Assembly (NCBI GenBank): GCA_028820935.1
Contig: JAPPHZ010000031.1
Coordinates: 62,001-126,000 of the forward strand
DNA: 64,000 nucleotides
From: a bacterium
GTDB taxonomy: Bacteria; Actinomycetota; Acidimicrobiia; Spongiisociales; Spongiisociaceae
Direction of reading: 5' to 3'
Below are positions 1,894 to 62,655 of the stretch, in pieces. A model generated the notes under the pieces. It searched no databases, was not told the origin of the DNA, and saw nothing but the letters and a program-made list of their open reading frames with translations. Position 1 is the stretch's first letter; each line of letters starts with the position of its first letter. Position numbers and translations under genes: made by a program.

Positions 1894-4208
1894 GCGGGAA
1901 TCCTCTCGCTCTCGCTTACCAGCCTACGCAGCCGGGAGGGGGTTGCAGGCACCTCGGCGATCTCGACCCCGAGGGGCAACAGCGCATCGGCGACCGCGTT
2001 GATGACGGCGGCCGGGGCGCCGATCGTGCCCCCCTCTCCCAGGCCCTTGGCGCCGGTGATGGTGGCTTCGGAGATGGTCTCGAGGTGGTGGACCTCGATA
2101 GTGGGAACCTCGGCCAGGGTGGGAGGCAAGAAGTCCATGAGCGAGGTGGTGAGGATGTTGCCCTCCCCGTCGTAGCGGATCTCCTCGTACAGCGCGCCGG
2201 CGATCCCCTGGGTGACCCCACCGTGGAGTTGCCCGTCCACGATCATCGGGTTGATGAGGCGCCCCGCGTCCTCCACCACCACGAACCGGTCCACGCGCAC
2301 CCCACCCGTCTCCGGATCCACCTCCACAGTGGCCACATGGCAGGCATTGGAGAAGGTCCCGGCCGGATCGTAGGTGGCCGTCGCCGTGAGGCCAGGGGCC
2401 ATTCCGGCGGCCAGGCGGTGGCTGGAGTGGTAGGCGAGGCGGGCCAGCTCCGCCACCTCGATCCCGGCGTCCGTACCCGCCACGGTCGCCCGGCCTGCCC
2501 GGATGATGATGTCCTCCGGCGCCGCCTCCAACTCCGCGGATGCGATGGCGGCCAGCTTGGCCGCCAGCCGGTCGGACGCCAGGCGGGCCGCTCCCCCGGC
2601 GATGACCAGGGACCGGCTGGCGAACGTACCCCAGCCGTACGGCGTGCGGTCGGTGTCGCCGTGAACGATCCGGACCCGAGCCGGCTCGACACCCAGTCGG
2701 TCCCCGATCAGCTGGGCGAGGGTGGTCTCCAAGCCCTGGCCGTGGGGTGAGGCCCCCACCCGGGCCTCCACGTTGCCGGACGGGTCCATGGCCAGGTCCA
2801 CGGTCTCGTATCCGGGCGTCACGTCCATGCTCCGGGCGGCGAAGGCCGAGGTCCCGTAGCCGGTGCGCTCGGAGAACACGGAGAAACCGACCCCTAGATA
2901 GCGGCCCTCGGACCGGGCTGCCGCCTGGCGGCCGCGGAAGTCCTCCAGGCCGATCTCCTCGACTGCCCGGTCCAGGGACTCCACGTAGGAGCCCTCGTCG
3001 TAGACCAGGCCGGTGGCCGAGGCGTAGGGGAACTCCGTTATCAGGTTGCGGCGCCTGATCTCGGCCGGGTCGATGCCGAAGCGGACAGCCGCCAGATCCA
3101 TGAGGCGCTCCATGGCCAGGGTGATCACGGGTCTCGACACCCCACGGTAGGGCGCCATCGGGCAGGTGTTGGTGGTGACGCCCCGGGACCGGACCCGGTA
3201 GGTACGGAAGTCGTAGGGCCCTGGGAACTCGGCCAGCGCCATCAGCGGCTCCACCCCGCAGGTGACCGGGTAGCAGGAGTAGGCGCCGATGTTGCACAGC
3301 AGGTCGGCATCCACCGCCAGCAGCCGGGCGTCCGCGTCGAAGGCGCCGCGTACCCGGTAGTGGTGGTCGCGGCTGTGGAAGGACGACATCAGATTCTCGC
3401 GCCGATCCTCCACCCACGACACCGTGGCCCGGAGCCGTCTCGCCACCCAGGCCGTCACCACGTCCTCCGGGGCCAGGCAGAACTTCTGCCCGAATGCTCC
3501 TCCCACATCCGGAACCACCACCCTGAGGTCGGACTCGGGCATGCCGAGCAGGTCGGCTAGGACGGTACGGACCACGTGAGGCGACTGGACGGAAGCGGTA
3601 AAGGTGGTCCGCCCCGAACGGGGGTCGTAGGCGGCAATCGAGCCTCGAGCCTCCAGAGGGAGGGCGTTCTGGCGCCGGGACCGCAGATCGAAGTCCACCA
3701 CTACCGCCGCGCCGGAGAAGACCTCGTCCACCCGCTCGGTCTCGAAGCGGGCGTCTACCACCACGTTGTCCTCCACGTGGTCGTGAACGGCCGGAGCGCC
3801 GGGGCGGAGGGCTTCGGGGGCGTTGATCACGCAATCCTCGGACTCGATGTCCACGAAGACCTTCTCGGCGGAATCCTCCGCCTCCTCGGGCGTGGCCGCC
3901 ACCACTACCGCGACGGGCTCACCCACGAATCGGACCTTGCCGGAAGCCAGCACCGGCTGCTCGATGGGGTGGAAGTCCGGCCGGTGGAGCAACGGCCGGA
4001 TGGGACGCACCTCCCTCAGGTCCTCGGCGGTGAAGGCGGTGATCCCTTTAGGCGCCTCGATGGAAACGATCCGGCCGTGGGCGACCGGGCTACGGACGAA
4101 CCTCAGGAAGGAGGCATCCCGGGTGAGGTCGGCCACGAACCGGCCGTCGCCGGTGAGTAGGGGTGGGTCCTCGAAGCGCGGGAGTGGCTGCCCGATCCAC
4201 GGGATCAC
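1890..4208 (-). CDS. Molybdopterin-binding large subunit of a xanthine/CO-dehydrogenase-type hydroxylase
   Basis: 772 residues, full length. The N-terminal a/b hammerhead domain opens with IPWIGQPLPRFEDPPLLTGD. Molybdopterin contacts include GGAFGQKF near residue 235. The active-site loop reads PYRGVSRP near 354, again not the CO-dehydrogenase AYXCSFR. The conserved catalytic Glu lies in KGLGEGGTIG near 724. The start is GTG at 4208, overlapping the stop of the FAD subunit (GTGA). With the FAD gene upstream and the 2Fe-2S gene downstream it forms the core operon. This copy differs clearly from the other two large subunits here, especially in the loop, so it probably has its own substrate. Confidence 0.92.
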   Translation of the reverse strand: MIPWIGQPLPRFEDPPLLTGDGRFVADLTRDASFLRFVRSPVAHGRIVSIEAPKGITAFTAEDLREVRPIRPLLHRPDFHPIEQPVLASGKVRFVGEPVAVVVAATPEEAEDSAEKVFVDIESEDCVINAPEALRPGAPAVHDHVEDNVVVDARFETERVDEVFSGAAVVVDFDLRSRRQNALPLEARGSIAAYDPRSGRTTFTASVQSPHVVRTVLADLLGMPESDLRVVVPDVGGAFGQKFCLAPEDVVTAWVARRLRATVSWVEDRRENLMSSFHSRDHHYRVRGAFDADARLLAVDADLLCNIGAYSCYPVTCGVEPLMALAEFPGPYDFRTYRVRSRGVTTNTCPMAPYRGVSRPVITLAMERLMDLAAVRFGIDPAEIRRRNLITEFPYASATGLVYDEGSYVESLDRAVEEIGLEDFRGRQAAARSEGRYLGVGFSVFSERTGYGTSAFAARSMDVTPGYETVDLAMDPSGNVEARVGASPHGQGLETTLAQLIGDRLGVEPARVRIVHGDTDRTPYGWGTFASRSLVIAGGAARLASDRLAAKLAAIASAELEAAPEDIIIRAGRATVAGTDAGIEVAELARLAYHSSHRLAAGMAPGLTATATYDPAGTFSNACHVATVEVDPETGGVRVDRFVVVEDAGRLINPMIVDGQLHGGVTQGIAGALYEEIRYDGEGNILTTSLMDFLPPTLAEVPTIEVHHLETISEATITGAKGLGEGGTIGAPAAVINAVADALLPLGVEIAEVPATPSRLRRLVSESERIPA

Positions 4209-30312: not shown

Positions 30313-32568
30313 GTGGAGATCGTAGGTTATGCGGACAGGCTGAGGGCCCAGCCCGGTGAGATGGTGAGCTTCAAGGTCAGTTGCAAGGCACAGACCTTCC
30401 GGGCCCAGTTGGTCCGTGTGAACCACGGCGACGACAACCCTGACGGACCGGGATCCAAGATCGACGACCTCGACTCACCCGCCAACGGTGAGTACCCGGG
30501 GAGGATTCAGGAACTCCACCCCGGCTCTTTCGTCGCAGTGCCCGACGATCCCCGGCTCCATTTGGACGGGAGCTTCACCATCCAGGCATGGATTTACCCG
30601 ACCACCGTAGGCAAGGGTCGGCAAGGGTTGGTCACCAAATGGGACTGCAACACGGACACCGGCTACGGGCTGTTCGTGGACGGGGAGGGCGCGTTGTCCC
30701 TCCGGATCGGTGACGGCGAGACCGTCGATGAGGTCAGCACCGGCGTGGCCATGCGGGATGCCAAGTGGTACTTCGCCGCCGGTGTCTACGACGCGGATGA
30801 TGGTTCGATGCGTGTCTACCAGACGCCCCTCGACCAATGGCCACTGCAGGACACCGCGGCGGAGGCCGGAGCAGCGGCCGCGGGTGGGCCGGGACGGACC
30901 GGCGCCGGCCTGATCATCGGCGGTTGTAGCCGTGGTCCGGAGAACGTCCCGGGCACGGTCGGCGGCCTCTACAACGGCAAGATCGACAACCCGACCATCA
31001 TCGGGCGGGCGCTCGGACCGGACGAGATCGCCGCCCTCAGGGAGGACCGTTCCTCCGTGGCGGGGGATCCGGACCTGGTAGGCGCATGGGACTTCGGACG
31101 GGACTTCTCGACCGCCACCGTCACCGACGGTTCCCCCAACGGACTGCACGGAGAGGCCCTCAACATGCCGGGCCGGGCGGTCACCGGTCACAACTGGGCC
31201 GGCCGGAACATGGACTTCAAGCACGCCCCCGAGGAGTACGCGGCTATCCGTTTCAACGACGACGACCTGGACGACGCACGCTGGGAGACGGACTTCGAGT
31301 ACGTCGTACCCGAGGACCTGAGAAGCGCCATGTACGCCTTCCGGCTCACCACCGACGACGCCGAGGACTACATCCCGTTCGCGGTACGGCCCAGGACCGG
31401 CGAACCCACCGCCAAGATCGCGTTCCTGCTCGGGACCTACACCTTCCTGGCCTACGCCAACGAGCACCTGGCCAACAACCCCGTGCTCATCGAGTACCTG
31501 GAGGGTAAGGGGATGGAGGTGGAGTTCCCGCTCCTCCCCCACGAGCACTACATGGTCGACAACAAGCTGGGCGGGCTCTACGACCTGCACACCGACGGGA
31601 GTGGCATCTGCTACTCGTCGAGCCGCAAGCCCATCGTCAACTTCCGGCCCAACAACAAGCAGCGGACGGTCGGCGCCGGTCTGGGCGCGCCGGTCCTGCT
31701 GTCCGCCGACCTCCACCAGATGGACTGGATGGAGAGCCAGGGATTCGAGTTCGACCTGATCACTGACGAGGACATCCACTTCGATGGGTTGGACCTGCTG
31801 TCCGGATACAACGTGGTGATGTCCGACGCCCACCCCGAGTACTGGACGGAGGACATGCTCATCGCCCTTGAGGCCTACCTCAACGCCGGGGGGCGATTCA
31901 TGTACCTGGGCGGCAACGGCCTCTACTGGATCACGTCGGTCGATCCCGAGCGGCCCCACGTCATCGAGGTGCGCCGCTGGAACGGAACCGGGTCGTGGCG
32001 GACCGACTTCGCGGAGAGCCACCACAGCACCACCGGGGAGCCGGGCGGCCTGTGGAGGTTCCGCGGCTGGGCGCCGCAACGCCTGGTGGGCGTGGGAATG
32101 ACCGCCCAGGGCGGTTCCGGAACCAACTCGGCCTACCGGCGCCTCCCGGATAGCCTCGATCCGAGGGCTGCCTTCATCTTCGAGGGGATCGGTGACGATG
32201 AGGTGATAGGCGACTTCGACACCCTAAACCTGGGATGGGGGGCGGCCGGCTACGAGATGGACCGGGCCGATCCAGCTCTCGGAACGCCCGATCACGCCCT
32301 GGTGGTGGCCACGGCGACGGACTTCGACGACAGCTTCCATCACGTAGTGGAGGAGGTCATGCACATGAACTCCGAGCAGACCGGCACCACCAACGATCAG
32401 GTGCGGGCGGACATGGTGCTCTTCGAGTATCCCAACGGCGGGGCCGTCTTCACCACCGGTTCGATCGCCTGGAGCGCCTGCCTCTCCCACAACGACTACG
32501 ACAACAACGTGTCGCGGATCACCGCCAACGTGTTGCGGAAGTTCGCCTCCGACGACCCCCTTCCCTGA
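30313..32568 (+). CDS. N,N-dimethylformamidase large-subunit-like protein with LamG-type domain
   Basis: 751 residues from GTG at 30313, with AGGAGG at 30299-30304. The N-terminal concanavalin/LamG-like domain (about 60-240) contains DGSFTIQAWIYPTT and TGYGLFVDGEGALSLRIGDG. The C-terminal amidase fold contains a MSDAHPEYWTEDM segment near residue 510, where the family places His and iron-binding Glu residues, and YLGGNGLYW near 535. Known dimethylformamidase cleaves the C-N bond of DMF with a mononuclear iron and also has a small subunit. No small-subunit gene is seen nearby. The substrate may be another N-alkylated amide. Confidence 0.83.
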   Translation: MEIVGYADRLRAQPGEMVSFKVSCKAQTFRAQLVRVNHGDDNPDGPGSKIDDLDSPANGEYPGRIQELHPGSFVAVPDDPRLHLDGSFTIQAWIYPTTVGKGRQGLVTKWDCNTDTGYGLFVDGEGALSLRIGDGETVDEVSTGVAMRDAKWYFAAGVYDADDGSMRVYQTPLDQWPLQDTAAEAGAAAAGGPGRTGAGLIIGGCSRGPENVPGTVGGLYNGKIDNPTIIGRALGPDEIAALREDRSSVAGDPDLVGAWDFGRDFSTATVTDGSPNGLHGEALNMPGRAVTGHNWAGRNMDFKHAPEEYAAIRFNDDDLDDARWETDFEYVVPEDLRSAMYAFRLTTDDAEDYIPFAVRPRTGEPTAKIAFLLGTYTFLAYANEHLANNPVLIEYLEGKGMEVEFPLLPHEHYMVDNKLGGLYDLHTDGSGICYSSSRKPIVNFRPNNKQRTVGAGLGAPVLLSADLHQMDWMESQGFEFDLITDEDIHFDGLDLLSGYNVVMSDAHPEYWTEDMLIALEAYLNAGGRFMYLGGNGLYWITSVDPERPHVIEVRRWNGTGSWRTDFAESHHSTTGEPGGLWRFRGWAPQRLVGVGMTAQGGSGTNSAYRRLPDSLDPRAAFIFEGIGDDEVIGDFDTLNLGWGAAGYEMDRADPALGTPDHALVVATATDFDDSFHHVVEEVMHMNSEQTGTTNDQVRADMVLFEYPNGGAVFTTGSIAWSACLSHNDYDNNVSRITANVLRKFASDDPLP

Positions 32569-32693: not shown

Positions 32694-32745
32694 ATGGATA
32701 GTCCCCGCCGGTTCAAGTCCGGAGACCGCGACGGCGGGGAGCACT
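32694..32745 (+). repeat. 52-bp hairpin repeat, copy 1
   Basis: Matches copy 2 (33121-33172) at 45 of 52 positions with no gaps. CCCCGCC and GGCGGGG arms about 20 bp apart allow a stem-loop; the loop contains GTTCAAGTCC. Confidence 0.85.
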
Positions 32746-32757
32746 GGGCGACACCCA

Positions 32758-33084
32758 TCAGACACAGCTGCCAGGCTTGAAGGAGGACCAACATCCGCCG
32801 ACGCGATCCCAGCCCGATCCACGTTCTAGCCGGCCAATCGTGTAACGAATGACAGGCCATTCATGTAAGAAACGGGGAGCCAGTCGTGTACTCGGTGACC
32901 GGTTCAGGGTCGGGGTCGTGTTCCACACCGGTGAGTGGACCACCCAACCCGAAGACCGCATTCTGGCGATACCGATCGACCGCCTCTGGACAACGGATAG
33001 CGGCGCCCGGGCTTGATGGAATACTTCGCGAGCGGCCATGTAGACATTCTGATAGTCCACGAACAGGACTACCCGATCAGCCAT
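32758..33084 (-). pseudogene. NYN-domain (PIN-like nuclease) gene fragment
   Basis: Reading from ATG at 33084, the first about 28 residues (MADRVVLFVDYQNVYMAARE then VFHQARAP) match the start of actinobacterial NYN-domain proteins, including the metal-binding Asp of the FVDYQN motif. After about 33001 the reading frame continues but no longer resembles the domain, and the other two frames on this strand soon hit stops, so the gene looks truncated or scrambled. Copy 2 of the 52-bp repeat lies directly upstream of its start and copy 1 near its end. Confidence 0.45.
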
Positions 33085-33120
33085 CTGTCGGTACTTCGAT
33101 CTCTCGAGAATTGTTCACTC

Positions 33121-33172
33121 ATAGATAATCCCCGCCAGTTCAAGTCCGAAGACCGGGACGGCGGGGAGTATT
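33121..33172 (+). repeat. 52-bp hairpin repeat, copy 2
   Basis: Direct repeat of 32694-32745 with 7 substitutions; the CCCCGCC / GGCGGGG arms are unchanged in both copies while several substitutions lie in the loop or flanks, which suggests the stem matters. Confidence 0.85.
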
Positions 33173-33330
33173 AACCGCAATGTATCACATCCTATGACAT
33201 CTATCAACCCGTACGCGGTTCGCGTGAGGCTACAGATCAGTGCTAGGACGCTCGCGGAGCAGGTGAAGGGCGCAGCCGCCGGTTCGACGGGAGCCGGCAG
33301 CCGTCGGGGCTTTGGTGTAGCTTGCAGGCT

Positions 33331-35355
33331 ATGACTACCTGGCTTGAAGAACGACCCGGCCCGGCCCGGACCCGGGCCAACGTTCGTATCCCGATGCGGG
33401 ACGGTGTCGAGTTATCCGCCGACCTGTTCTATCCGGAGTCGGACGATCCCGCCCCGGTGATCATCAAGTACTACCCGTACCGTAAGGACGACCTGCTGCG
33501 CGCCCTGACCGTGGAACGCGCCAACTACTACGCCGCCCATGGCTACATCACCACCCTGCTCGATGTGCGGGGAACCGGCGCCTCGGCCGGAGTTTGCGAC
33601 CGGATGCTCCGCCTGCAGGAGTGGGAGGACGGCTACGACGCGGTGGAGTGGTTGGCTGCCCAGCCGTGGTGCACCGGGGCGGTAGGGATGACCGGGGTCT
33701 CGTACGGCGGGTACTCGTCCCTGCTCACCGCCGCCCAGGCGCCGCCCAGCCTCAAGGCCATCGCCCCCATCTACGCCGGATGGGACCTCTACGAGAACAG
33801 CCATCCGGGAGGGATGTGGCAGACCTCCATCTGGACGGGCGCATACAACGCCATGATGACCGCCCTGTCAGGGGCGCCTCCCGCGCCCGATACGGAAGGC
33901 GCGTGGCTGGAGATCTGGGACGAGCACCTCGCCGCCAACCAGCCCTGGCTCGAGTCCTGGATCCGCAATCCGGTGGACGGTCCGGTGTGGCACGAAGGCT
34001 CGGTCCGCTACGGGCTCGAGAACATCCGGGCAGCCACCTTCATCTTCGGCGGGTGGCATGACATCTTCGTCTCCGACCCGTTCTACATGTACATGGGCCT
34101 GAGCCCGGACCTACCCAAGAAGCTGATGATGGGTCCCTACCTCCACATAGCCCCCAACATCGGGACGCCTGGAGAACGGTTCGACCACCTTCACGAGATC
34201 GTGCGCTGGTTCGACCAGCACCTCAAGGGGGAAGACACCGGCATTGCGGACGAACCTCCCGTCAGCCTCTGGGTGCGTGGTTATGACCGCCCCCAGGCTC
34301 GCCGGGAAGCGGCCGGCGGCTACTGGCGTTCGGAGGCAGCGTGGCCGCTCGCCCGGGCCACGGACGAGGCCCTCCACCTCCGGCCCGACGGGCGGTTGAA
34401 CGGCGTCCCGCTGTCGGAAGGCGAGGAGGACCGCGTCTCATATACCTACGACCCGGCTGTGGGCATCTCGACCATGGGTCTGATAACGGGGCTCGGCGCC
34501 GACGTCGGCCTCCCCATCGACCAGCGTCGTGATGCCGCGGGGTCCGTGGTCTTCCTCGGGGAGCCACTCGAGGAGAGCTGCGAGGTGACCGGCTTCCCCG
34601 CGGCCACCCTCTTCGTATCCTCGACCGCCGAGATCACCGCCTTCTCCGTGAAGCTGATCGACGTACATCCCGACGGTCCCTGGGCGCTGGTGTCCAGGGC
34701 CATCAAGAACGCCACCCAACGAAACTCCAGGACCGACCCCGAGCCGCTCGTGCCGAACGAGGTCACCGAGGTCACCATCGAACTGGAGGCTGTGTCCTAC
34801 ACGTTCGAGGCAGGCCACCGGATCGGCGTCATGATCTCCAGTTCGGACTTCCCGCTGGTCTGGCCCCTGCCGCAGAACGCCGTCAACACCATCCACATGG
34901 ACACCGACCACCCCTCCAGGATCAGCCTCCCGGTGGTGAGCCGTCCCGACTCCGGCCTCCCCCCTCCTGACTACCGACCGGCCCATCCCCCGCCCGATCC
35001 GCTGGGGACCGCCGAGCCGACGCGATGGGACCTGGTGGAGGACCTCGCGGGTACCGAGGTGAGCGTGGTGATCTCGATGGGGGGCGACTCCACCAACGAC
35101 AACGGCGCACGGATCCATACCCACACGGACTTCAAGGTCACCACCGACCGGTCCGACCCGGCCAACTCGAGTGTCGAGGCCGCATTCCGCTTCGATGTCG
35201 ACCACGGGACTTCCCGAACCGAGGTCAGAAGCTCTACCCGCGTGGTGGGGAACCCCGACTCCTACCACGCAGTCACGGCGTCAGAGGTCCGAACCGACGG
35301 CAAACCCCACTTCTCCCGCACCTGGCACACCTCGGTCCCGAGAGGTTTTCTGTGA
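33331..35355 (+). CDS. CocE/NonD-family alpha/beta hydrolase (X-Pro dipeptidyl-peptidase-like)
   Basis: 674 residues from ATG at 33331; a TTG three codons upstream is less likely. The S15-type alpha/beta hydrolase domain shows VRGTGAS, the nucleophile motif GVSYGGYSS near residue 130, and GPYLHIAPN for the catalytic His. The C-terminal jelly-roll X-Pro domain is recognised by YTFEAGHRIGVMISSSDFP. Family members cleave esters or amides (cocaine esterase, cephalosporin acylase, X-Pro dipeptidases). No signal peptide is visible, so it acts in the cytoplasm. Next to a dimethylformamidase-like gene it strengthens the amide-degradation theme. Confidence 0.9.
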   Translation: MTTWLEERPGPARTRANVRIPMRDGVELSADLFYPESDDPAPVIIKYYPYRKDDLLRALTVERANYYAAHGYITTLLDVRGTGASAGVCDRMLRLQEWEDGYDAVEWLAAQPWCTGAVGMTGVSYGGYSSLLTAAQAPPSLKAIAPIYAGWDLYENSHPGGMWQTSIWTGAYNAMMTALSGAPPAPDTEGAWLEIWDEHLAANQPWLESWIRNPVDGPVWHEGSVRYGLENIRAATFIFGGWHDIFVSDPFYMYMGLSPDLPKKLMMGPYLHIAPNIGTPGERFDHLHEIVRWFDQHLKGEDTGIADEPPVSLWVRGYDRPQARREAAGGYWRSEAAWPLARATDEALHLRPDGRLNGVPLSEGEEDRVSYTYDPAVGISTMGLITGLGADVGLPIDQRRDAAGSVVFLGEPLEESCEVTGFPAATLFVSSTAEITAFSVKLIDVHPDGPWALVSRAIKNATQRNSRTDPEPLVPNEVTEVTIELEAVSYTFEAGHRIGVMISSSDFPLVWPLPQNAVNTIHMDTDHPSRISLPVVSRPDSGLPPPDYRPAHPPPDPLGTAEPTRWDLVEDLAGTEVSVVISMGGDSTNDNGARIHTHTDFKVTTDRSDPANSSVEAAFRFDVDHGTSRTEVRSSTRVVGNPDSYHAVTASEVRTDGKPHFSRTWHTSVPRGFL

Positions 35356-61290: not shown

Positions 61291-62655
61291 GTGTCCGGGT
61301 TCGACCAAATCTTCGACGACTGGGAGTCACAGGGAATCAAGCGGGTGCGGTTCGAACTGCCCGACCTGCACGGGACTTCCCGCACCAAGGTCGTCCCCCT
61401 CAAGGCCGCCCGCAGCTTTGCGCGCAAGGGCCTGAACATGTACGGGGGTACCGCGGTACTCGACACCCGCTCGGATGTCGTGCCCGGCAGCCTGTACAAC
61501 GAGGAGGTGGGGTACGGGGACCAGCTCCTGTTCCCCGACCCATCCACAGCCGCGATCGTGCCGTGGGCCTCCGATACCGCCCGGCTGATCTGCGATGCGC
61601 AGTGGTACGACGGCCAGACCCTGGAGGCCACTCCGCGGGCCGTCTACCGGCGGGTGCTCGAGAAGGCCGCCGATATGGGATTCGAGCCGATGACCGGATG
61701 CGAGTTCGAGTTCTACCTGCTCGACGGCGAGACCCACGAGCGCCTGTTCGAGGGCTACCACATCTTCAACGTGGTCCGTAACGAGTGGGTACCGACCATC
61801 AACCGGATCGTGGACCTGATGCCCGGGGTGGGTATCGACATCATCACCTCCAACTGCGAGTACGCCGGGTCGCAATGGGAGATCAACTTCACCCCCGGCC
61901 GGGGCATCAACGGTCCCGACCGGGCATTCACGTTCAAGAACGGCGTCAAGCAGATCGCCTACCAGGACGGCTACCTGGCCACCTTCATGACCAAGCCGTG
62001 GGCCGGGCACTCCGGGAACGGATGCCATATCCACATGTCGCTGGTGGACAAGGACACCGGGCAGAACGTCATGGCCGACGAGTCCCACCCCCAGGGTCTC
62101 AGCGAGGTGGGCCTCCGGTTCACGGCCGGGCTGATCACCCACGCCAACGCCATCGACGCCCTCCTGGCCCCCACTATCAACTGCCGCCGCCGGCGCCGCA
62201 CCCACACCTTCAGCCCCACCAACATCTCCTGGGGACTGGAGGATCGGTCGGCTCTGCTGCGCGTGAAGGCGGCCGGTCCTGACGCGACCCGGATCGAGAC
62301 CCGCTCCCCCAGCGCCTTGATGAACCCCTACCTGGCCAGCGCCGCCATCCTGGCCGCCGGCCTGGACGGGATCGAGAAGGGATTGGAGCCCCCGGCGCCT
62401 TCCCGCCAGGGTGTGCCGGCGGAGGAGGACGAGTCGCTCGAGAAGCTCCCCGCCACCCTCGGCGAGGCGCTGGACCACTTCGAGGCCAGCGATGCCACCA
62501 CCGGATTCTTCGGCCAGGAGTTCAAGGACGCGTTCCTGGCGGTGCGCCGCTACGAACTGGGCCGGTACGCCGCCGAGGAGGACGAGGACCCGGATTCGCA
62601 GCGCACGGACGAGATCAGCGGCTGGGAGACCAACGAGTACCTCGAACTGTATTAG
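61291..62655 (+). CDS. Glutamine-synthetase-family ligase
   Basis: 454 residues from GTG at 61291, with GAGGAGG 8 bp upstream; earlier in-frame starts are not supported. The N-terminal beta-grasp (VRFELPDLHGTSRTKVV) and catalytic motifs CEFEFYLL, GSQWEINF, GNGCHIHMSL, INCRRRRRTHTFSPT and IETRSPSALMNPYLA are intact. It is a GlnA-type-III-like or gamma-glutamyl-amine ligase rather than the main GlnA, by size and context. It is divergent from the class III aminotransferase, mirroring the ligase-aminotransferase pair at 8-12 kb. Confidence 0.88.
   Translation: MSGFDQIFDDWESQGIKRVRFELPDLHGTSRTKVVPLKAARSFARKGLNMYGGTAVLDTRSDVVPGSLYNEEVGYGDQLLFPDPSTAAIVPWASDTARLICDAQWYDGQTLEATPRAVYRRVLEKAADMGFEPMTGCEFEFYLLDGETHERLFEGYHIFNVVRNEWVPTINRIVDLMPGVGIDIITSNCEYAGSQWEINFTPGRGINGPDRAFTFKNGVKQIAYQDGYLATFMTKPWAGHSGNGCHIHMSLVDKDTGQNVMADESHPQGLSEVGLRFTAGLITHANAIDALLAPTINCRRRRRTHTFSPTNISWGLEDRSALLRVKAAGPDATRIETRSPSALMNPYLASAAILAAGLDGIEKGLEPPAPSRQGVPAEEDESLEKLPATLGEALDHFEASDATTGFFGQEFKDAFLAVRRYELGRYAAEEDEDPDSQRTDEISGWETNEYLELY

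Follow-up and report, generated by a model that had tools for sequence, protein, structure and literature searches.

A covarying hairpin RNA linked to NYN-domain genes, present in two copies at a decayed actinobacterial locus

The 64,000-nucleotide stretch analysed here (the window: forward-strand positions 62,001 to 126,000 of contig JAPPHZ010000031.1, assembly GCA_028820935.1, class Acidimicrobiia) carries two direct repeats, at 32694-32745 and 33121-33172, around the remnant of a gene for an NYN-domain protein; coordinates are whole-stretch positions, and labels beginning with G and L denote genomes and loci. The repeats are best explained, with a probability of about 0.5, as two copies of a small-RNA gene that belongs with an NYN ribonuclease (RNase) gene as its RNA-antitoxin-like partner, the RNase gene and a neighbouring ATPase gene having decayed at this site. 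The linkage of the RNA to NYN genes, its covarying hairpin, its -10 box and U-tract and its encoding on either strand come directly from computation. By analogy with type III toxin-antitoxins and AbiF-RCd22, the RNA would partner and restrain the NYN RNase.

The NYN protein and the hairpin RNA look like an undescribed RNA-enzyme pair that recurs in many bacteria and on plasmids. Predicted RNases of the NYN type are widespread, but their bacterial roles are for the most part unknown, and a conserved, covarying RNA names the RNA partner of one branch of them. Its occurrence both on plasmids and in phages whose hosts are cultured actinobacteria makes roles as toxin, antitoxin and counter-defence testable together.

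NYN genes and their hairpin RNA

Initial searches with 16-mers gave chance matches for the most part. DNA searches brought up hairpins from further families within the order, including two (G042 and G134) that precede complete NYN genes at other sites. A covariance model, R1, was built from 13 sequences of 12 genomes. In a protein-side search of named genomes, all 12 NYN relatives had an R1 match directly upstream; they came from Acidimicrobiia, Thermoleophilia, Kitasatospora, two Dehalococcoidia, and bins labelled Acidobacteria, Actinobacteria, Actinomycetes and bacterium. Among 37 NYN genes in 395 genomes of the class Acidimicrobiia and 396 of the phylum, 29 had an R1 match at an expectation value (E) <=0.05 (128 kb searched), two had weak matches (L170, E 0.48; L150, E 0.71) and six had none.

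Full-length NYN genes at E<=1e-50 all carried the hairpin (18/18, counting L150, where the model gives E 0.71 and the stem is visible), and no full-length close NYN gene lacking the RNA was seen in the class and phylum genomes. With the training genomes removed, the match rates were 23/31 for the class and phylum genes and 7/7 for the named-genome loci, two of these seven (L127 and L130) being apparently the same as L161 and L160. On plasmids, R1 matched at 6 of 10 NYN loci, in Clavibacter, Pseudonocardia, Dietzia, Miniimonas, Rhodococcus and Rothia.

Searching from the RNA side, R1 matched at E<=0.01 in 42 of the 395 class genomes, and the 30 loci retained had an NYN gene or NYN remnant at 18 and none at 12. 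Five of these 12 occupy sites at which NYN is present in a relative: L103 and L117 share the site of the window locus, whereas L106, L109 and L118 apparently share that of G093 (common neighbours, judged by eye). No NYN gene was near L108, L112, L113, L116, L119, L121 or L123, and L121 and L123, the weakest of the 12, are perhaps chance matches. The hairpins of L112, L113, L116 and L119 (at about 1501-1555) are of the family, score 32-40 bits and have no NYN within about 1.5 kb; those of L113 and L116 are near-identical in differing contexts.

Other structures were noted beside more distant NYN genes. Ahead of the NYN genes of L170 and L171 stands a different hairpin, with a CCCCGG stem and a U-run after it, and these may represent sister RNA families. 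At the NYN gene of L176, on a Mycolicibacterium plasmid, a long palindrome GACATCCCGG ... CCGGGATGTC stands upstream of 1489 in place of the family hairpin.

Folding and compensatory changes

On the minus strand, the copies fold into a hairpin with a 7-bp outer stem (CCCCGCC/GGCGGGG), a bulged U and a variable inner stem. An earlier sequence-only reading of the window had viewed the hairpin on the plus strand, which was the wrong strand for the RNA; its suggestion of a structural RNA came close, as the RNA is conserved with NYN across genera and phyla and its stem changes are compensatory. Among 42 linked copies, a set defined as NYN-linked copies with a hit and including the weak L170 and L150, 38 have a U immediately before the 3' arm, and the loop and inner stem vary in both sequence and length. 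One hairpin per locus is found almost everywhere, with two only in the source genome (G000), G011 and L196.

Covariation, assessed on 36 linked copies (35 distinct), was strong. Both sides had changed in 9 of 13 tested pairs, giving 44 cells, a result reached by none of 500 shuffles, and sliding the partner by 1-3 columns gave <=15 cells. The rows were cut at model-hit coordinates, so the alignment ends lean towards the model. An earlier test on the first 13 sequences was weaker, its paired percentage being reached by 62/500 shuffles and its covariation score by 20/500. Besides the sequence given above, the outer stem occurs as CCCCACC/GGUGGGG, CCUCGCC/GGCGAGG, CCCUACC/GGUAGGG, CCCUGCC/GGCAGGG, CCACGCC/GGCGUGG and CCCCGUC/GACGGGG. 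A plain hairpin accounts for the observed covariation.

Neither the window nor the hairpin had an Rfam match at gathering score, the abiF and DUF3800 RNA models included. The plus strand of the hairpin (window 32698-32735) contains GGTTCAAGTCC, which resembles a tRNA T-arm and is regarded as coincidence; a tRNA-like reading was dropped because the RNA is on the opposite strand and the window is without an Rfam match.

Transcription signals and strand

A TANNNT -10 box precedes the stem by 12-14 nt in 33 of the 42 linked copies (expected 0.18 per position), and a U-tract of at least four U in the 8 nt after the stem follows all 42. The RNA unit is thus read from its sequence as a putative promoter, a hairpin of ~45 nt and its own predicted terminator. 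From the positions of the two signals, the transcript should begin a few bases before the hairpin and could end right after it.

Sense copies just upstream of NYN make up 37/42, and the other five lie on the strand opposite NYN. In L165, L166, L168 and L169, the unit is upstream of NYN on the opposite strand with a U-tract after all four, and -10-like boxes were seen by eye in L166 and L168. The units of L165, L166 and L169 face the end of the neighbouring gene, and that of the related L167 is sense. In L142, the unit is just past the 3' end of NYN, on the other strand. Since these five copies are encoded opposite NYN, the RNA is not only an mRNA leader, and judging from the predicted units a purely in-cis leader is excluded for them. 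The earlier suggestion of a regulatory leader copied with its gene holds for the NYN linkage but is too narrow for an RNA with its own promoter and terminator signals and 5/42 opposite-strand copies.

The NYN protein

Three relatives matched Pfam NYN (PF01936) at 36.3-41.1 bits (E 3.4e-10 to 9.5e-9) against a gathering score of 24.2. Residues D11, N14, D113, D119, D147 and D149 are invariant in nine full-length rows. A structure model (predicted local distance difference test, pLDDT, 86.6) was nearest to 2qip (E 6.2e-6) and the MARF1 NYN domain (E 4.1e-4). Family and modelled fold together indicate that the protein is probably an RNase. It resembles the NYN RNases MARF1, VPA0982 (2qip) and the LabA-like proteins in its Pfam family, model similarity and invariant acidic residues; the searches made put no RNA partner for these RNases on record.

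At 10 of 18 class loci, NYN is split or truncated, assembly errors being possible. Such frequent breakage would fit a dispensable or costly gene. PADLOC gave a weak HEC-09 match for the NYN protein (E 2.2e-8 to 3.9e-5) and a PDC-S01 match for the ATPase next to it (E 2.6e-131), labels that denote candidate defence families only. The HEC-09 and PDC-S01 entries, as shown, mention no RNA. Among the matches listed in the literature searches, none connected NYN to a hairpin RNA, and PMC11109978 and PMC8632094 mention NYN 0 times.

Copies in viral contigs

The pattern CCCCGCCGT N9-20 ACTGGCGGGG was found in 13 IMG/VR contigs, three of which look like chance, with no NYN in the examined contig DNA. 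Three altered stem patterns, used as controls, hit 14 contigs together. A T-rich tail followed 8/13 true-pattern matches vs 2/14 controls (P 0.018; duplicates merged, P 0.017), and the family 5' flank ANTNNT preceded 7/13 vs 0/14 (P 0.0019; duplicates merged, P 0.0026), the flank test having been picked after the hits were viewed and the flanks counted by eye. A scan of viral contigs with the family-variant pattern yielded three chance-like contigs only.

Terminase and portal genes flank the hairpin in L189, L193 and L195 (the last near-identical to L193 and placed by its matching gene layout), and in L187 it lies near the terminase small-subunit gene, in a region common to Gordonia phages. 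In 83 kb searched, Gordonia phage Squiddly carries the same hairpin as L187 (E 3.4e-9), inside an annotated hypothetical gene of 183 nt, and Birdsong carries one with a different loop (E 1.2e-4). As a query, the Squiddly hairpin found only Squiddly, and blastn with a Dietzia hairpin gave no phage. No RNA match was found near the portal genes of Streptomyces phages GiJojo and BRock or in the stretch of Apricot. Some contigs (L191, L196 and L185) are possibly of host origin, and the few of their genes that were scanned matched no Pfam family. The viral-labelled L196, in which NYN is absent, bears tandem family hairpins at 3165-3208 and 3500-3551.

No relatives of the NYN protein of L129 were found among 50,697 phage records, nor any NYN relatives in viral contigs. 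Phages with RNA look-alikes (pseudo-ToxI) are known for type III toxin-antitoxins. The NYN-RNA pair might be a new type of RNA-controlled anti-phage toxin system against which phages carry the RNA alone as a decoy antitoxin, a tentative and rather unlikely proposal. On another reading, the phage hairpin is a phage terminator of like shape.

Comparison with known systems

Type III toxin-antitoxins are described as having a single promoter, with a Rho-independent terminator ahead of the toxin gene (PMC5086642). The NYN-linked loci resemble ToxIN, CptIN and TenpIN in placing a small RNA before a predicted RNase gene with a shared promoter and a terminator between. The RNA gene precedes the protein gene under one predicted promoter with 5/42 exceptions, and the Rho-independent terminator between the two is present, the hairpin here being the terminator. 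Tandem RNA repeats are absent, with a single hairpin at almost all loci, and the pair is therefore type III-like and not a member. It further differs in having an NYN domain rather than a ToxN-type toxin and in an RNA that can occupy the opposite strand, and neutralisation is here only presumed.

AbiF-RCd22 consists of a short RNA with a terminator upstream of an RNase-type abortive-infection protein, where read-through gives the mRNA and RCd22 acts in cis and in trans (PMC12373285). Its layout of an RNA with a terminator upstream is shared by the NYN-RNA pair; AbiF, however, belongs to the Abi_2/AbiD/F family and not to NYN, and the abiF RNA (RF03085) has no match here. RNA motifs of DUF3800 were reportedly treated by Weinberg in 2017. 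Like those motifs, the present RNA is a hairpin adjoining a nuclease-fold protein, but the protein fold differs and no Rfam match exists. DUF3800 itself has been reported in association with putative non-coding RNAs (PMC10910872).

How the RNA may act

If the RNA is an antitoxin-like partner, it would be produced in excess, with the majority of transcripts terminating at the hairpin, which would bind and restrain the NYN RNase; read-through would yield a little RNase mRNA. Upsetting this balance would free the RNase to cut cellular or phage RNA.

Several observations weigh against such a partner. The single hairpin differs from the tandem pseudoknots of known type III antitoxins, and R1 finds nothing at the distant NYN genes L154, L155, L159, L171, L172 and L173 or at the plasmid loci L175, L176, L182 and L183. 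The solo RNAs may simply be relics. Family f1 keeps the hairpin with no clearly intact NYN found (in G010 the NYN frame is open, but the usual start codon is absent at its expected place), and because of this persistence the hairpin in f1 may also serve something else. Finally, the prevailing arrangement, sense and just upstream of NYN with a U-tract (37/42), is explained by a cis attenuator too. Under control purely in cis, the hairpin would be a 5'-leader attenuator or cleavage site with no role in trans, letting either the RNase or pausing of RNA polymerase limit NYN expression; RNases commonly autoregulate by RNA binding. The four divergent copies with their U-tracts and, in L166 and L168, -10-like boxes, the copy past the 3' end, the persistence of the RNA where NYN is lost or broken, and the phage copies without NYN argue against this explanation, which is considered possible but on the improbable side.

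A conserved stem and bulge adjoining a nuclease-fold enzyme would also suit an RNA that acts as cofactor, guide or processed substrate and activates NYN as a ribonucleoprotein, as suspected for DUF3800 proteins and their RNAs. The variation of loop and inner stem, in length as well as sequence, leaves no guide segment visible, and a terminator shape typically marks an expression brake, making this option unlikely. Least probable is that ordinary intrinsic terminators or a repetitive extragenic palindromic (REP)-like repeat lie here by coincidence. The combination of a CCCCGCC/GGCGGGG stem and a U-tract is common among terminators, yet the linkage found from the NYN protein side, the putative promoter 12-14 nt before the stem, the oriented bulged U (38/42), the compensatory stem changes and the mere two genome copies speak against coincidence, as do the altered-stem matches in viral contigs, mostly without a U-tract and all without the flank.

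The repeat pair and the decayed locus

The RNA-antitoxin-like reading takes the window locus (L097) as a decayed member of the family, with the following features.

32695..32748, minus strand: hairpin RNA copy 1, a relic (R1 match G000:C31:94695-94748:-, 61.7 bits; copy 1 itself was among the rows used to build R1)
33122..33175, minus strand: hairpin RNA copy 2, full structure (R1 match G000:C31:95122-95175:-, 75.7 bits, E 5.2e-21; the training rows included the G008 hairpin, identical to copy 2)
33179..33184, minus strand: putative -10 box TACATT, 12 nt upstream of the copy 2 stem, from sequence
32989..33084, minus strand: first 32 codons of an NYN-domain gene, remainder lost (NYN hidden Markov model positions 1-32, E 2.9e-11; L097 1368-1463)
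32890..33004, plus strand: 3'-end relic of an AAA/DUF4143 ATPase gene (88% identity to L013 2822-2936, congener G005)
32791..32890, plus strand: relic of the ATPase upstream region with three short CCAnTCrTGTA repeats (75% identity to L013 1534-1635)
30313..32568, plus strand: left flanking gene, intact, with an N,N-dimethylformamidase beta-like C-terminal domain (Pfam DMFA2_C, E 9.9e-85), a site marker
33322..35355, plus strand: right flanking gene, intact, a 677-aa open reading frame conserved in L014 and presumably a CocE-type hydrolase from sequence reading alone, a site marker

The two direct copies described by the sequence-only reading, 45/52 identical with 375 bp between them and intact stems, were confirmed by comparison and shuffling. 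Within the 1-kb region, the top 49-nt pair shares 44/49 positions against <=33/49 in 200 dinucleotide shuffles, so chance is excluded as the source of the repeat. Its claim that substitutions avoid the stem is right in that both stem 7-mers are identical between copies, but alone it is a weak sign, with P = 0.094 that seven random changes all miss the 14 stem bases. Copy 1 lacks a -10 box at the usual place and has one disrupted inner-stem pair. The -10 box of copy 2 is positioned as in the 33/42 linked copies, and L124 is the identical stretch in G008. The fold z of copy 2 is -4.81 on the plus strand and -2.49 on the minus strand.

The source genome (3.30 Mb, 51 contigs) holds no third copy: the 16-mer core at <=1 mismatch gave two matches, and R1 gave two only, both at the window locus. 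A small mobile or REP-like repeat, also proposed by the earlier reading, was rejected, since many dispersed copies would be expected and the two found share a single locus, at which the NYN unit is retained in congeners. The genome and covariance searches which that reading had suggested thus gave no further copies in the source genome, and in relatives they gave hairpins with compensated stem changes; the refuting outcome it named, no other copies together with stem changes left uncompensated among relatives, did not arise in the form given.

The broken NYN gene that it placed between the repeats is real for 32 minus-strand codons, but the remaining part of that open reading frame (32758-33084) runs antisense through the ATPase relic; the 108-aa frame itself has no Pfam match. 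Window 33029-34654 is 92% identical in DNA to the congener G008, covering the start of a longer minus-strand NYN gene that has the hairpin directly upstream and a frameshift near its C-terminus only. At the same site, G005 has a complete AAA/DUF4143 gene (L013 1674-2948; DUF4143 E 1e-39; PDC-S01 E 2.6e-131) alongside half a hairpin. The window is a decayed mosaic of both types, in the order hairpin 1, ATPase relics, 32 NYN codons and hairpin 2. G007 keeps the hairpin with NYN absent, and in G011 two hairpins are separated by 133 bp. Cassette exchange or an attachment site was considered for G005, G008 and the window and dropped, because unrelated sites also have the hairpin next to NYN. As PADLOC assigns the G005 ATPase to the candidate defence family PDC-S01, this position may be a small hotspot.

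Between congeners, the hairpin is better conserved than the NYN relic or the spacer, with identities (in that order) of 0.89/0.77/0.38 for G008-G006, 0.96/0.23/0.76 for G002-G003 and 0.80/0.62/0.52 for G006-G002. As the flanking genes in these pairs are at 0.87-0.93, the hairpin is kept about like coding DNA, lower in G006-G002. The short repeats upstream of the ATPase gene (window 32830-32890, L013 1577-1637), CCAATCGTGTAA, CCATTCATGTAA and CCAGTCGTGTAC, are spaced by ~30 bp and retained in the window relic, and are perhaps an operator.
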